Source: an uncultured Ectothiorhodospiraceae bacterium (GTDB taxonomy: Bacteria > Pseudomonadota > Gammaproteobacteria > XJ16 > Halofilaceae). From it: a stretch of 64,000 nucleotides of DNA. The first letter of the stretch is position 1; each line of letters begins with the position of its first letter. The notes below the pieces were generated by a model. That model saw nothing but the letters and a program-made list of their open reading frames with translations, was not told the DNA's origin and did not search any database. The stretch is from the NCBI GenBank assembly GCA_913055615.1, contig CAJXKK010000002.1:62001-126000 (forward strand), read 5' to 3'. Shown in pieces: positions 9,324-34,178 of the stretch. Both the position numbers and the translations under genes were made by a program.

Positions 9324-10988
9324 TCAACCGTCGGCGAGCAGTTCCCGTGCATGTGCACGGCTCTGCTCCGTGATCCGGCGCCCGCCCAGCATGCGCGCGA
9401 TCTCCTCGATCCGATCCTCGGCCGCGAGCGCCTGCAGACGCGCCCGCGTTTCGTCGGATTCCGCCGATTTTGATACCTGCAGATGATGGTGCGCGCTGGC
9501 CGCGACCTGCGCGAGGTGGGTGACGCACAGTACCTGACGCTGCGCCCCCAGCGCGCGGAGCCGATCCCCCACCACGGCCGCAACGCCCCCACCGATGCCC
9601 GCATCGACCTCATCGAAGATCTGTGTCGGGATCCCCGCGTAGCCGGAGTCGATCATCTGGATCGCGAGGCTGATCCGCGAGAGTTCGCCGCCCGAGGCGA
9701 CCCGTTTCAGGGGCGCGAGCGGCTGGCCGGGATTCGCCGTGACCCGGAACTCGACGTCGTCGAAGCCATTCGGGCCCGGTTGCCGGTCCTCGCGGGCGGT
9801 TACGGCGCAATCGAACGCGCCGCCGGCCATGCCGAGTTCCTGCATCGCCGCGGTCACCTGCTCCGCGAGCGCCTGGCCAGCGCGCTCACGGGTCGCGTGG
9901 AGTGTCCGGGCGTGGTCACGCCAGCTCGCCTGCAGCGCCTCGACCTCGCGTTCGACTTCGGCCGCCCGCTCGTCCGCGTGTTCGAGTTCATCCAGTTCGC
10001 CCCGCAGCCGCTCCGTCAGCTCGGGCAGTTCGGTGGGCTCGACGCGGTGCTTGCGGGCCAGTTCGTGGATCGCGGACAGACGTTGCTCCACGTCTGCCAG
10101 CCGGTCGGGATCGAGTTCCGCATCGGCCGCGTAGCCGCGCAGCGCGGTCGCCGCCTCGTCGCACTGGATCAGGGCGTTGGCGATCATCTCGACGGCCGAG
10201 CCGAGGCGCTCGTCATGACCGGCGAGTGACTCGATCGCGTCATTCGCCCCGGTGAGCAGCCCATGGGCGGAGCGGTCGTCGTCGTACAGCAATGTCAGCG
10301 CCTGCTGGCAGCCCTCGATCAGTTGCCCGGCATTGGCCAGTCGGCGTTGCTCGGCGTCGGTCTGCTCGATCTCTTCCCGCGACAGGCCGAGCTGATCCAG
10401 TTCCTCGACCTGGTAGCGGAGCAGTTCGAGGCGTTCGGCGCGATCCTCTCCACTGCTGCCAAGGCGCGCCAGTCGTGCCCGGGCGTCGCGCCATTCGCGC
10501 CAGGTCTCCTCCACGACCGCCAGTTCGTCATCACAGCGGCCGAAACCATCCAGCATCACGCGCTGTGCATCCCGGCGCAGCAGTGACTGATGCTCATGCT
10601 GGCCATGGATGTCGACCAGCTGTTCGCCGAGTTCGCGCAGGAGTGTAAGGGGCGATTTGCGGCCATTGATATAACCGCGCGAGCGGCCATCGGCACCGAT
10701 TACCCTGCGCAGGCTGCAGTCACCGTCGGCGTCGAGGTCGTTGTCGGCGAGCCATTCGGCGACGTCGGCATGGTCGGCGATATCGAATTCGGCATCGATC
10801 TCGGCCCGCTCCGCCCCCGGGCGCACGGTTTGGCTGTCCGCACGGTCGCCGAGCACCAGCCCCAGCGCATCGAGCAGGATCGACTTGCCGGCACCGGTCT
10901 CGCCGGTCAACGCGGTCATGCCCGCGCCCAGCTCGAGCTCCAGCTCGTCGATGATCGCGAAATCGCGGATGTGGATATGCTTGAGCAT
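9324..10988 (-). CDS. recN: DNA repair protein RecN
   Basis: RecN is an SMC-like ATPase acting in double-strand break repair. The 554-residue length is typical. The N-terminus has MLKHIHIRDFAIIDELELEL and the Walker A motif TGETGAGKSILLDALGLVLG. The middle (about residues 160-370) is rich in E/R/A heptads and should form the coiled-coil arm, and the C-terminal head carries SGGELSRISLAIQMI and the Walker B region IFDEVDAGIGG. Expression is usually LexA-controlled, but no CTGT-N8-ACAG site is obvious upstream. A 187-bp inverted-repeat element begins 48 bases upstream of the start. Confidence 0.97.
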   Translation of the reverse strand: MLKHIHIRDFAIIDELELELGAGMTALTGETGAGKSILLDALGLVLGDRADSQTVRPGAERAEIDAEFDIADHADVAEWLADNDLDADGDCSLRRVIGADGRSRGYINGRKSPLTLLRELGEQLVDIHGQHEHQSLLRRDAQRVMLDGFGRCDDELAVVEETWREWRDARARLARLGSSGEDRAERLELLRYQVEELDQLGLSREEIEQTDAEQRRLANAGQLIEGCQQALTLLYDDDRSAHGLLTGANDAIESLAGHDERLGSAVEMIANALIQCDEAATALRGYAADAELDPDRLADVEQRLSAIHELARKHRVEPTELPELTERLRGELDELEHADERAAEVEREVEALQASWRDHARTLHATRERAGQALAEQVTAAMQELGMAGGAFDCAVTAREDRQPGPNGFDDVEFRVTANPGQPLAPLKRVASGGELSRISLAIQMIDSGYAGIPTQIFDEVDAGIGGGVAAVVGDRLRALGAQRQVLCVTHLAQVAASAHHHLQVSKSAESDETRARLQALAAEDRIEEIARMLGGRRITEQSRAHARELLADG

Positions 10989-11036: not shown

Positions 11037-11223
11037 CTCTCGCCAAGACGCGGAGCGCGCCAAGAAAGCAGGGCGGTCGAGGTCGATGCACGGTATTTAA
11101 GCGTATTATTAACATACTTAAATAAGTGTCTGATTTATTGAGTTCTTCTTCCAGTTATCAGGGACGTTCCGCTTTCCAGAAAACCATACTTTTTTCTTGG
11201 CGCGCTCCGCGTCTTGGCGAGAG
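11037..11223. repeat. Long-inverted-repeat element, copy A (perfect 31-bp arms)
   Basis: Positions 11037-11067 and 11193-11223 are exact reverse complements over 31 bases, enclosing a 125-base core. Arms start CTCTCGCCAAGACGCGGAGC. The core is AT-rich for this genome, with TATTTAAGCGTATTATTAAC and further A/T stretches. The element lies between recN and nadK, both on the minus strand, and no ORF is evident inside. Related but imperfect elements occur at 12208-12365, 23209-23371 and 34017-34178. Confidence 0.9.
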
Positions 11224-11249: not shown

Positions 11250-12113
11250 CTACCCCCAGTGGAGTTTCTCGCGCAGGATCGAGAAATAGTCGTAATCGGC
11301 CGGGTGGAGGAGCCGTATCTTGCGCTGCTTACGGCTGACGCGCACGCGGTCGCCGGCGGCAACGTCGATATTGTTCTGGCCATCGCTGACCACCTGACCC
11401 GTCTCGCTGATGTTCTCACGGATCCGGATCTCGATGTCGCTGCCAGAGTCGACCACGATCGGGCGGCTCGAGAGCGTATGCGGGCAAATGGGCAGGACGA
11501 GCATGGCTTCGAGCGACGGGTGCAGGATCGGCCCCCCTCCGGACAGCGCATAGGCGGTCGAACCGGTGGGGGTCGACACCACCATCCCGTCGGCGCGCTG
11601 GATATTGACGAAATTGCCATCGATCCAGGTCTCGAACTCGATCATGCGCACCACGTTCTTGATCCGCAGCACGACATCGTTGAGGGCGACCGCCGTCTGA
11701 ACGACCGTGTCGCCGCGGATGATCTCCGTCTCGACCAGGAAGCGCCGCTCCTCGGTGTACTGACCGCTGAGGATTTCCTCCAGGCGCTCGGTCATCGTAT
11801 CGGGCGATACATCGACCAGGAACCCGAGTCGCCCGAGATTGACGCCGACGATGGGGACACCGCAATCGGCGAGCGAGCGCGCGGCGGTCAGCAGCGTCCC
11901 GTCGCCCCCGACCACGATGGCGAGATCGCAGTGCTCCGCGATCTCGCGGCGCGGCACGGTGGCGTCGATCTCGAGGAATTCGTCAGTCGAGCGGTCGAGG
12001 CTGACCTCCAGGCCCCGGTCGAGCAGAAAGCGATGGATCATGCGCAGCGTGGCGCGTACCTGACCGTCGTCGTCGGTCTTGGCGATCAGGCCAATGGACT
12101 GGAAGCGATACAT
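11250..12113 (-). CDS. nadK: NAD kinase
   Basis: NAD kinase phosphorylates NAD to NADP using ATP. The 287-residue protein matches the family length. It has the GGDGTLL motif (about residues 63-69), the NLGRLGFL segment, LNDVVL, and the C-terminal ADGMVVSTPTGSTAYALSGG nucleotide-binding motif. The ATG at 12113 starts the typical MYRFQSIGLIAK; further in-frame upstream codons are Arg/Pro-rich and not protein-like. Repeat element B lies upstream and element A downstream. Confidence 0.96.
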   Translation of the reverse strand: MYRFQSIGLIAKTDDDGQVRATLRMIHRFLLDRGLEVSLDRSTDEFLEIDATVPRREIAEHCDLAIVVGGDGTLLTAARSLADCGVPIVGVNLGRLGFLVDVSPDTMTERLEEILSGQYTEERRFLVETEIIRGDTVVQTAVALNDVVLRIKNVVRMIEFETWIDGNFVNIQRADGMVVSTPTGSTAYALSGGGPILHPSLEAMLVLPICPHTLSSRPIVVDSGSDIEIRIRENISETGQVVSDGQNNIDVAAGDRVRVSRKQRKIRLLHPADYDYFSILREKLHWG

Positions 12114-12207
12114 TCGCGAAACGGTAGCACGCGGTCGCGGGCGCGTCACCGTGACCGCTCGCGCCGCCGGCGGGTTTGGGGACGCATGTGGGAACGGCGA
12201 AAACCGG

Positions 12208-12365
12208 TTTCTCGCAGAGGCGCAGAGAACGCAAGGAAGGCGTAAATCGATGATGCGGTTGAGTGCGATCGTCCGCTGGTGCGTGGCTGAGCGATTTGCG
12301 ATTCCCAGGCCCGGAAAAAAAATTTGTCTCGCCTTTCTCCGCGATCTCTGGGGCTCTGCGAGAAA
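12208..12365. repeat. Long-inverted-repeat element, copy B
   Basis: The left arm at 12208-12241 (starting TTTCTCGCAGAGGCGCAGAG) and right arm at 12331-12365 are imperfect reverse complements around a 90-base core. The first 12 arm bases match exactly. It sits between mutS and nadK. The core holds an A8 run at about 12315-12322 and no ORF. Confidence 0.75.
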
Positions 12366-12400
12366 CTGTTTTTTCTACGCCCGAGGTGGCCCAGGCGGGC

Positions 12401-23081: not shown

Positions 23082-23208
23082 GAGGAATCGAACCCGGTAC
23101 GGTCAACGTGGCTTGATCCTAGCACCGTGGAACGCGCATGTCCCGCAACTGCAGATCGGCGGGCGCGCGGAATTCCGATGCCCGTTATGGCTGGGATGTG
23201 CCGTTTAT

Positions 23209-23371
23209 GGGTTCTCGCAGAGGCGCAAAGAGCGCGGGGAATTCAAAATACAATACGACCGAATGCCTGCCCCCGGGGCCGTGGCGTGGCACAACGCAAG
23301 GAGGCGATCATCACGCGATTATCCCATCATCCGCGGCCAACTCTGCGCTCTCCGCGCCTCTGCGAGATCCC
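23209..23371. repeat. Long-inverted-repeat element, copy C
   Basis: The left arm begins GGGTTCTCGCAGAGGCGC at 23209. The right arm ends at 23371 and its reverse complement begins GGGATCTCGCAGAGGCGC. Both then read AGAGCGC after a two-base difference. The core is about 96 bases and includes ACAACGCAAGGAGGCG, a motif also seen in the arm of copy B. The element occupies the 397-base gap between the small secreted protein gene and lolC; nothing else is recognisable there. Confidence 0.75.
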
Positions 23372-23478
23372 AAACGTACTGCCAGGCCACGCCGACAACG
23401 CGAGGACCCGTACCAGGCGCCAAAGATCTTCTCACCAAGGCAGACACGGCCGCTGCGCGTGTGGTTTAATCCCGCGCC

Positions 23479-33202: not shown

Positions 33203-33812
33203 CTGGGAACTGACCGACCGCGAGATACTCTACGAAGGTTTCTTCCGGCTCGCGCGCTACCACCTGCGGCACGAGCGTTTCGATGGCGCATGGAGCCCGG
33301 TGCTCCAGCGCGAGATCTTCGAGCGGGGTCACGCGGCCGCGGTTCTGCCTTACGATCCGGTCACGGATCGCATCGCCTTGATCGAGCAGTTCCGTCCGGG
33401 CGCGCTCGAGGCGCCATCCGGCCCCTGGCTGCTGGAATTCGTGGCCGGCATCATCGAGGCGGGGGAAACGCCCGAGGATGTCGTGCGACGCGAGGCGATC
33501 GAAGAGGCGGGCTGCACCATCGGCCGGCTCGAGTCGATCTGCCGCTACCACGTCAGTCCCGGAGGCACGACCGAGACGACGGCCGTGTTCGTCGGCGAGG
33601 CCGCGCTGGACGGCGTCGGCGGTGTCCATGGCAACCCCGATGAGAACGAAGACATCCAGGTCCACATCGTGGATGCGACCGAGGCGATCGCCATGGCCGA
33701 CGACGGCCGCATCGCCAACGCCATGGGACTGATCGGACTGAACTGGTTCGCCCGCAATCACGAACGCCTGCGATCGGAGTGGCGGGCCGGAACTCCCTCG
33801 GGCCCCCTGTAG
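33195..33812 (+). CDS. nudF: ADP-ribose pyrophosphatase-like Nudix hydrolase
   Basis: This 205-residue Nudix protein resembles NudF/ADP-ribose diphosphatase. The Nudix box is complete: GIIEAGETPEDVVRREAIEE followed by AGC, fitting G-x5-E-x7-R-E-U-x-E-E-x-G-U. The conserved YYHVSPGGTTE-like region (here CRYHVSPGGTTE) and the dimer region FRPGALE support the ADP-ribose group. Its stop codon TAG at 33810-33812 lies inside a REP sequence (33808-33833), so the REP inserted at, or replaced, the original end of the gene. Confidence 0.9.
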   Translation: MRDWELTDREILYEGFFRLARYHLRHERFDGAWSPVLQREIFERGHAAAVLPYDPVTDRIALIEQFRPGALEAPSGPWLLEFVAGIIEAGETPEDVVRREAIEEAGCTIGRLESICRYHVSPGGTTETTAVFVGEAALDGVGGVHGNPDENEDIQVHIVDATEAIAMADDGRIANAMGLIGLNWFARNHERLRSEWRAGTPSGPL

Positions 33813-33943
33813 GAGCGAGCTTGCTCGCGAACCGGCGTCCTGGTCCCCAACGCTCCAGGTCAATCGCCACGCGCCATACTGCGATCCCAGCGAGATACGC
33901 ATGCGCCTGCAGAAAACGGTTCGCGGCCAAGGCCGCTCCTACA
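33808..33943. repeat. REPIN-like doublet of two inverted 26-base REP sequences
   Basis: Positions 33808-33833 and 33918-33943 are inverted copies of a REP of the GTAGGAGCG...CGCGAACC type familiar from Pseudomonas. The outer bases are identical, but the inner stem differs in a compensated way: GCGAGC-TT-GCTCGC in one arm and GCGGCC-TT-GGCCGC in the other. Both hairpins therefore remain perfect. An 84-base spacer separates them. No RAYT transposase gene is in the window. Confidence 0.88.
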
Positions 33944-34016: not shown

Positions 34017-34178
34017 GAGGGGCTCTCCAGGCCGCTAAGGAACGCAAAGAAAACCGAAAACGTTTCAAGTGGAAGAACCGCAGGCCGAGACAGGGGTAAG
34101 CCCCGGGATCGTATTCACCCGGACTTATTCCCGATTCTTCTTTACTTTGCGTTCCTCGGCGCCTTGGCGAGAACCCTT
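34017..34178. repeat. Long-inverted-repeat element, copy D
   Basis: The left arm (34017-34053) includes GCTAAGGAACGCAAAGAAAA. The right arm (34137-34178) reads TTTACTTTGCGTTCCTCGGC and then GCCTTGGCGAGAACCC. The arms are imperfect reverse complements around a roughly 83-base core. With the REPIN-like doublet it fills most of the 422-base gap between nudF and the DUF7931 gene; the remaining bases show no feature. Confidence 0.72.

Follow-up and report, generated by a model that had tools for sequence, protein, structure and literature searches.

We describe a family of small elements in which a gene for a protein of the GxxExxY family is bounded by inverted arms made of iterated 7-bp units. 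The inverted-repeat structure at positions 11037-11223 of the window (the entire stretch of 64,000 nucleotides analyzed here), denoted copy A, is probably an old, gene-less, non-autonomous member of this family, with GxxExxY as the putative mover. The comparisons described below point to a little-noticed kind of small bacterial mobile element rather than a special switch of recN, the gene that copy A precedes; for recN, copy A seems to be of little importance and looks like neutral baggage. The features of the window that are relevant for this analysis are the following:

Left arm of copy A, 11037..11067, plus strand: CTCT CGCCAAG A CGCGGAG CG CGCCAAG AAA, with three 7-bp units
Core of copy A, 11068..11192, unstranded: A/T-rich, gene-less, inverted relative to the flanks in the sister species G002
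Right arm of copy A, 11193..11223, minus strand: inverted copy of the left arm
ORF read as recN, 9324..10988, minus strand: start at 10988, downstream of copy A
ORF read as nadK, 11250..12149, minus strand: upstream of copy A
Second copy in the window, 12200..12373, unstranded: CGCAGAG-type arms, 85% complementary, different core
Third copy in the window, 23208..23372, unstranded: CGCAGAG/CGCAAAG-type arms, 89% complementary, different core
Fourth, more degenerate copy in the window, 34023..34171, unstranded: 81% complementary

We take the ORF at 9324-10988 to be recN, based on its sequence and on the name given in the earlier note, and the ORF at 11250-12149 to be, presumably, nadK. Copy A occupies the spacer after the nadK-like ORF and before the recN ORF, both of which are on the minus strand, and extends from about 48 to 235 bases upstream of the recN start (about 50-200 bases in the earlier note). 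As the earlier note had recognized, its arms (window positions 11037-11067 and 11193-11223) are exact reverse complements at 31 of the 31 positions, which for an inverted pair at such a distance is far beyond chance; with mismatches allowed, the arms reach 37 nt at 95%. In both arms, the units come in the order CGCCAAG-1-CGCGGAG-2-CGCCAAG. The whole structure is 187 bp long and consists of the perfect arms and a 125-nt core without a gene, which contains TATTTAAGCGTATTATTAAC and has a G+C content of 40.8%, compared with 67.4% for the whole window; only 0.12% of the 125-nt windows in the 64 kb equal it in A/T-richness, so the A/T excess of the core reported before is real.

Copy A is short and gene-less and has terminal inverted repeats, as do MITEs, but several genomic copies with a common core were not found: neither the whole-genome search nor the 859 kb examined of the genome that contains the window (G000, 3.0 Mb) yielded a second copy of the core, and therefore we call copy A MITE-like rather than a MITE. 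No target-site duplication is evident around it. There is no nuclease gene between its arms, so that it does not qualify as an autonomous GxxExxY element; the triple of CRYNRAK units, with spacers of 1-3 bp, in each of its inverted arms places it in the GxxExxY-arm element family as defined in this analysis. When the core was compared with the elements that carry the GxxExxY gene, blastx found nothing and blastn nothing convincing, so that no remnant of this gene is recognizable in it.

The arms of copy A belong to a large set in G000. In a search of this genome with copy A, in which 40 of the 61 candidates were scored, 67 matches reached an E value of 0.001 or less; one covers the full element and the rest are arms. 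A loose arm pattern has 70 exact matches in the 859 kb examined for element counts; a partner that faces inward lies within 700 bp of 55 of these, and none of the 70 has an outward-facing neighbour. Altogether, 37 elements were delineated, with arm variants composed of CGCCAAG, CGCAGAG and CGCGGAG units. Among the 45 left arms with a partner, the highest complementarity scores are 31/31 (twice), 30 (twice) and 29 (three times), and the second perfect pair is at C5:42114; accordingly, the arms of copy A are indeed unusual, as had been noted, but their perfection is not special to copy A (2 of 45).

The cores are much less uniform than the arms. Copy A and 20 other elements, that is, 21 of the 37, have cores with no stretch in common with another core; the remaining 16 have some such stretch, 8 of the 37 over more than half of their length, and include GGTTCTCGCC-type elements, with a REP-like repeat contained in some. 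The idea of a core common to the elements of these 859 kb was accordingly dropped. The 21 unrelated cores are unlike what would be expected of copies of one transposon, and this counts against the reading that we prefer. A REP-like inverted pair, TGTAGGAGCGAGCTTGCTCGCGAACCG, is also present at window positions 33808-33943, and similar stretches occur within the cores of C1:25184 and C4:19327 in G000. Some elements are nested, with the arms offset by 43-47 bp (C1:75326-75679, C8:47417-47755 and C37:4190-4446 in G000, and the G002 site corresponding to C4:23114), often with a CCAAG pair located within a CAGAG or CGGAG pair. Additionally, the 17 bases outside both arms of the 37 G000 elements show a mean complementarity of 8.16 (the maximum of 1000 permutations is 8.08), and GTCAAAGGCG and CTGCAATG recur in these outer flanks; either the arms are longer than delineated or the elements prefer a palindromic target.

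The sister species G002 contains the copy A element at the same site, with flanks that are 88-90% identical. The two cores are 56% identical (67 of 119 alignment columns) after inversion: the score of the inverted global alignment is 76 compared with 27.2 +/- 7.2 for shuffled sequences (0 of 1000 as high), and that of the direct alignment is 35, a value reached by 59 of 1000 shuffles. In the more distant G001, of the same genus, only about 35 bp separate recN from the nadK-like gene and the element is absent. Given the occupied site in G002 and its absence in G001, the element entered before the split of G000 and G002 or was lost in G001. The earlier note had suggested that copy A might be a recent arrival and had proposed a search for an empty site in sister strains; the element is absent from G001, but G002 is occupied by an element with a diverged and inverted core, which contradicts the proposed age. 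For the same reason, we give very little credence to copy A having come in recently as an ordinary MITE that belongs to a DDE transposon: the perfect arms and the lack of a gene fit such an origin, but the core has no sibling copy and the matching arms in G000 bound a nuclease gene.

The second explanation offered for the perfect arms, homogenisation, fares better and is supported in part. The middle units of the copy A arms in G002 are one CGCGGAG and one CGCCAAG, and in G000 both are CGCGGAG; arm units that are alike in G000 and differ in G002 look like the result of exchange between the arms. The same perfect arms at this locus in distant genera, which had been named as an argument against a recent origin or homogenisation, were not seen: by a two-unit pattern, an arm pair is present at 0 of 10 loci from other genera (L011-L020). 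Both flanks of 13 of the 37 G000 elements are contained in the part of G002 examined, and 12 of these 13 sites are armed there too (occupancy was scored by the arm pattern). Conversely, for 16 of 20 G002 elements, the flanking sequences on both sides are contained in the examined part of G000, where one of the 16 sites (the C11:164490 region) is without an insert. At the 13 sites, three cores have the same orientation in both species, one of these being the GxxExxY gene; three are inverted, two of them very clearly, with copy A among the inverted; six show no similarity between G000 and G002; and one, of 37 nt, is ambiguous. Between these two species, then, element positions are stable while the cores flip and turn over.

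The conservation pattern also bears on the proposal that the core of copy A adds a promoter for recN or otherwise affects its expression. The copy A sequence contains one sigma-70-like match, where 0.3 +/- 0.7 are expected, so this promoter reading finds no sequence support and was dropped. A search of copy A for an intrinsic terminator (a short GC stem with a loop of 3-8 nt and a T run) returned none, the loop here being 125 nt. Retention of copy A for the regulation of recN, with its 31-bp RNA hairpin or its core as a terminator, attenuator or promoter, could be suggested by its location in the spacer before recN and by the strong predicted fold of its RNA (-92 kcal/mol compared with -46.3 +/- 4.4 for shuffled sequences). 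We nevertheless regard it as very improbable because the element is absent in G001, its core in G002 is only 56% conserved and inverted, dozens of such elements are found elsewhere in the genome, and neither a terminator-like site nor an excess of promoter-like matches is present. As no promoter or terminator stands out and both the letters and the orientation of the core differ between the sister species, a role of copy A for recN is unlikely on sequence grounds.

The clue to the nature of these elements comes from those that contain a gene. Because repeats of this kind were expected beside GxxExxY genes, this gene was looked for first. G000 encodes two GxxExxY proteins (TIGR04256; PF13366, PD-(D/E)XK nuclease). 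The first gene, of 129 codons (C5:74917-75258), is located within an element at C5:74857-75312, the left arm of which differs from the copy A arm in 2 of 27 letters (TCTCGCCAAGACGCCAAGCGCGCCAAG); it scores 133 and 130 bits to the PF13366 and TIGR04256 models and lies between ORFs that we take to be trpE and trpG. It is kept at this site in G000, G002 and G001 (in the last, it is cut by contig ends) and its dN/dS between G000 and G002 is 0.11; its constant position beside the trpE/trpG-like ORFs in three species gives no sign of present activity at this locus, a point against the preferred reading. The second gene, C6:15829-16167, is preceded directly by a presumably topoisomerase-like ORF and is bounded by a different inverted arm composed of CACAGAT units. 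Its G002 sister (on C14) has CACGAAT arms.

The family is found in 68 of 370 genomes of the class. At loci that, in all tests of the arms, were chosen by the presence of the GxxExxY gene, an inverted repeat with a score of at least 14 bounds the gene in 26 of 32 cases (the two of G000 and the 30 best-scoring others of more than 100 matches in the class), compared with 1 of 59 control windows. Further loci that were fetched show a bounding inverted repeat in 17 of 20 cases, 6 of the 20 repeating the first set. Across phyla, where the best 80 of at least 570 relatives were selected by similarity to one clade and 7 of the 80 had too little flank, 46 of the 73 testable loci have such a repeat, compared with 0 of 130 control windows; some of the 46 (e.g., L269, L288, L303 and L318) are composed of different letters or point outward. 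A common design emerged from these loci: three units of 7 bp that conform to CRYNRAK follow one another in each arm at intervals of 1-3 bp, or about one unit per helical turn. Triples of this unit are present on both sides of the gene at 82 of 116 loci (38 of 43 and, in the cross-phylum set, 44 of 73) compared with 1 of 130 controls, and at 34 of 116 they were not found on both sides; the score was designed after the first 32 loci had been seen and is partly circular for these, with 44 of the 82 positive loci coming from the 73 cross-phylum ones.

The distribution of arms across the 370 genomes follows that of the gene, in part. A strict version of the G-type arm pattern is present in 70 genomes, in up to 245 copies, with 0 or 1 match to the reversed control pattern. 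Such arms were detected in 43 of the 68 genomes with GxxExxY and in 27 of the 302 without it (Fisher P 1.5e-20), and at least five of them in 34 of 68 and 13 of 302 genomes, respectively (Fisher P 7e-19); these P values ignore kinship, the genomes not being phylogenetically independent. In the other 25 gene-bearing genomes, this pattern, the one arm type scanned for, is lacking, which also counts against the preferred reading. The 13 genomes with at least five arms and no GxxExxY, three of which are single-contig assemblies, contain no PF13366 match either (0 of 13), so that arms can exist without GxxExxY; in these genomes, the elements may have persisted after loss of the gene or may be moved by a different enzyme. 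Six genomes without GxxExxY or PF13366 (G056, G076, G113, G120, G216 and G345) have 51 to 99 strict arms each.

We also tested another small gene, the four-helix TIGR02436, in arm-rich genomes that lack GxxExxY. Of its 11 matches, found in 7 of 19 genomes, 10 have both flanks, and none of these 10 testable loci is surrounded by CRYNRAK triples, so that TIGR02436 was rejected, on these loci, as a further gene for which such arms serve as boundaries. The flanks of some TIGR02436 genes (L345, L347, L348, L353 and L354) contain inverted arrays of other units, such as AGTAGCAAGT, GGTGATG and GGGCCAA; by their layout, these look like a sister arrangement with another gene.

The letters of the units are alike within a locus and different between loci, and they are inherited together with the protein. 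For the comparison, a quick tree of 124 columns was built for 76 of the 82 loci with triples on both sides; six loci (L081, L093, L193, L326, L331 and L342) were dropped by hand because of a stop or because the triple was not clear in one arm. The seventh unit letter is G at 66 loci, T at 6 and A at 4. The G-letter loci form one side of a branch with 96% support, and 3 changes suffice to map the letter on the protein tree, compared with a mean of 9.8 for shuffled letters (0 of 200 shuffles as low). The spacers differ too, all 6 T loci having 3-bp and all 4 A loci 2-bp spacers, and each of the two G000 genes has arms of the type found in its protein clade. This pattern suggests that GxxExxY reads its arm.

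It might still be that GxxExxY is a passenger and that the arms are spread by another enzyme or by host recombination. The 13 arm-rich genomes without GxxExxY and PF13366, the vertical maintenance in three species of the gene beside the trpE/trpG-like ORFs, and the cores of G000, 21 of 37 unlike any other and that of copy A without a gene remnant, are what such a scenario predicts. We consider it unlikely, given that the arms closely bound the gene in many phyla (at loci chosen by the gene), that the arm letters follow the protein clades, even for the two genes within G000, and that TIGR02436, another small gene, is without such arms at 10 testable loci.

Evidence of dispersal that is in line with GxxExxY as the mover comes from G249, of another family. 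This genome contains two arm-gene-arm units of 464 bp that are 90.5% identical and have unrelated flanks; one of the two has a stop codon. In addition, G249, G375 and G155 contain short derivatives, mostly of 150-180 bp, in which the arms are retained together with part of the 3' end of the gene and, in some, with the gene start region. Letters derived from the gene extend beyond the arm at 17 of 20 fetched derivative sites, which were picked from the matches to the query. The derivatives in G249 and G375 retain both arms around an internal deletion, and here, a common core of the kind expected of MITEs is observed. The segment that holds the intact G249 unit is missing from G155, where one base lies between the matched flanks; the missing segment also includes a neighbouring 165-bp element, so that two adjacent elements are absent together. 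At the position that is empty in G155, a third species contains yet another insert. A six-base repeat, TAAGAC, at one G249 site is a possible target duplication, although no clean one could be established. The second short element, of about 165 bp (L212, approximately 1330-1494), has CACGAAA arms and a common core, with 22 matches of 84-95% identity in G375; in G249, such a CACGAAA-armed element adjoins the intact GxxExxY unit.

These sites also allow an assessment of a homing-like scenario, in which GxxExxY would cut an empty target that resembles the arms or their junction, repair from an occupied copy would convert the site, and the arms would serve as homology and recognition tracts. PD-(D/E)XK homing nucleases exist, and the scenario predicts position-stable elements with cores that turn over, much as observed within the genus, where 12 of 13 orthologous sites are armed in both species and the cores are often replaced or inverted; the nested arms with an offset of 43-47 bp and a weak Foldseek match to I-Bth0305I (3r3p, E 0.34) could be accommodated too. 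Nevertheless, we deem homing improbable: the whole unit and its many deletion derivatives at unrelated sites represent dispersal, and the single empty site seen, that of G155, the only one that was read closely, does not resemble the arm.

The protein itself has the features of a PD-(D/E)XK nuclease. GxxExxY proteins consist of 120-130 residues, and in the AlphaFold2 model (pLDDT 94, pTM 0.87) the D...(D/E)xK catalytic signature of PD-(D/E)XK enzymes falls on a predicted nuclease core; D67 and K79 are invariant in 20 sequences, and E77 is found in at least 90%. The VIA-align Z scores of the model are 9.5 to SSO0001 (4ic1), 9.1 to 3ijm and 6.8 to the Holliday junction resolvase-type Hjc structure 1gef. 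A Foldseek search with the model gave no match at E 0.001 or better, the weak hit to 3r3p being the one mentioned above. With middling scores to several nuclease families and no Foldseek match, we claim no single relative. PADLOC models of anti-phage defence families matched none of three proteins, a single weak endonuclease match to PHROG was obtained for one of the three proteins, and the gene matches TIGR04256 and PF13366 only, with no sign of a tyrosine transposase.

Taken together with the arms, these features suggest the following tentative scheme. The complete element, arm - GxxExxY gene - arm, would be about 450 bp long. GxxExxY would bind the units of both arms and cut at the ends, and the freed or copied segment would be set into new sites, perhaps via host recombination, which we invoke because the protein is too small to include a strand-transfer domain as well. 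After loss of the gene, copies could still be moved in trans. After insertion, the inverted arms would recombine, so that cores flip or are replaced and the arms are evened out. The arm structure, its association with the gene, the co-inheritance of arm letters and protein, the two whole units at unrelated sites and the internally deleted derivatives in another family, the occupied and empty sites, and the inversion and turnover of cores are observations; cutting of the arms and movement of the elements by GxxExxY itself, and an origin of copy A in this manner, are what we infer from them. In its most general form, the hypothesis is bolder, and we put it forward as a possibility that still falls somewhat short of probable: that this is a pan-bacterial autonomous element of approximately 450 bp, perhaps among the smallest, the sole gene of which encodes a stand-alone PD-(D/E)XK nuclease, some 125 residues long, that reads an arm of three letter-coded units (CRYNRAK, with G, T or A in the seventh position depending on the clade) and moves itself and its gene-less derivatives without a transposase domain, copy A being one fossil of this activity.

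The anatomy resembles that of RAYT/REP and IS/MITE pairs, with another enzyme and another repeat. RAYTs are accompanied by REPs, BIMEs and REPINs. According to PMC2817692, an inverted copy of a short repeat lies on either side of the RAYT gene, further copies of this repeat are scattered without it, the repeat co-evolves with the protein, the presence of the gene correlates with the number of repeats, and RAYTs evolve rapidly. The GxxExxY elements share the single gene between short inverted repeats, the gene-free dispersal of the repeat, the co-evolution and the correlation between gene and repeat number. Flanking on both sides by inverted repeats, constant for RAYT genes, was observed at 26 of 32 and 46 of 73 GxxExxY loci and is common there. 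Unlike RAYTs, which are tyrosine transposases related to IS200/IS605, GxxExxY is a PD-(D/E)XK nuclease; its arm is built of three direct 7-bp units rather than a REP hairpin, and its gene is under purifying selection (dN/dS 0.11), whereas RAYTs are reported to evolve rapidly (PMC2817692). Insertion sequences with their MITEs resemble the elements of G249 and G375 in the occurrence of arm-gene-arm at two sites together with shorter, internally deleted derivatives; they differ in that the GxxExxY element has no transposase, its arms are composed of iterated units, the letter code of which varies, a clean target duplication was not found, and 21 of the 37 G000 cores are unlike any other. PD-(D/E)XK homing endonucleases, Hjc and Cas4 share the fold class with GxxExxY, but none of them was retrieved by Foldseek at E 0.001, and the fold alone does not indicate the function.

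The C5 gene clearly belongs to PF13366 and TIGR04256 (133 and 130 bits); these entries name only the nuclease superfamily or the motif, and the link to arms and elements is the part added here. In the literature searched, which did not extend to preprints and most subscription journals, we found no description of this link: in the relevant passages of PMC8934634 and PMC9756366, only the GxxExxY family names are mentioned, and those of PMC4666352 concern a different repeat. A scan of GTDB contigs confirmed at least 570 GxxExxY relatives among the 588 stretches listed. For a family that is common yet unexplained, a tie to a dispersed, coded inverted repeat would provide a job, and conversely, the link between arm and gene would account for a class of repeats that is found in many phyla. 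It would also offer a very small DNA-cutting or DNA-moving system with a specificity that can be read from the repeat, and the letter code makes predictions about the residues that recognize each base. Arm-like letters (CTCTGTGTTCTCTGTGGTG) appear, without comment in the passage of PMC3090145 concerned, in a Bacteroides fragilis primer upstream of BF2782, near an invertible promoter region.
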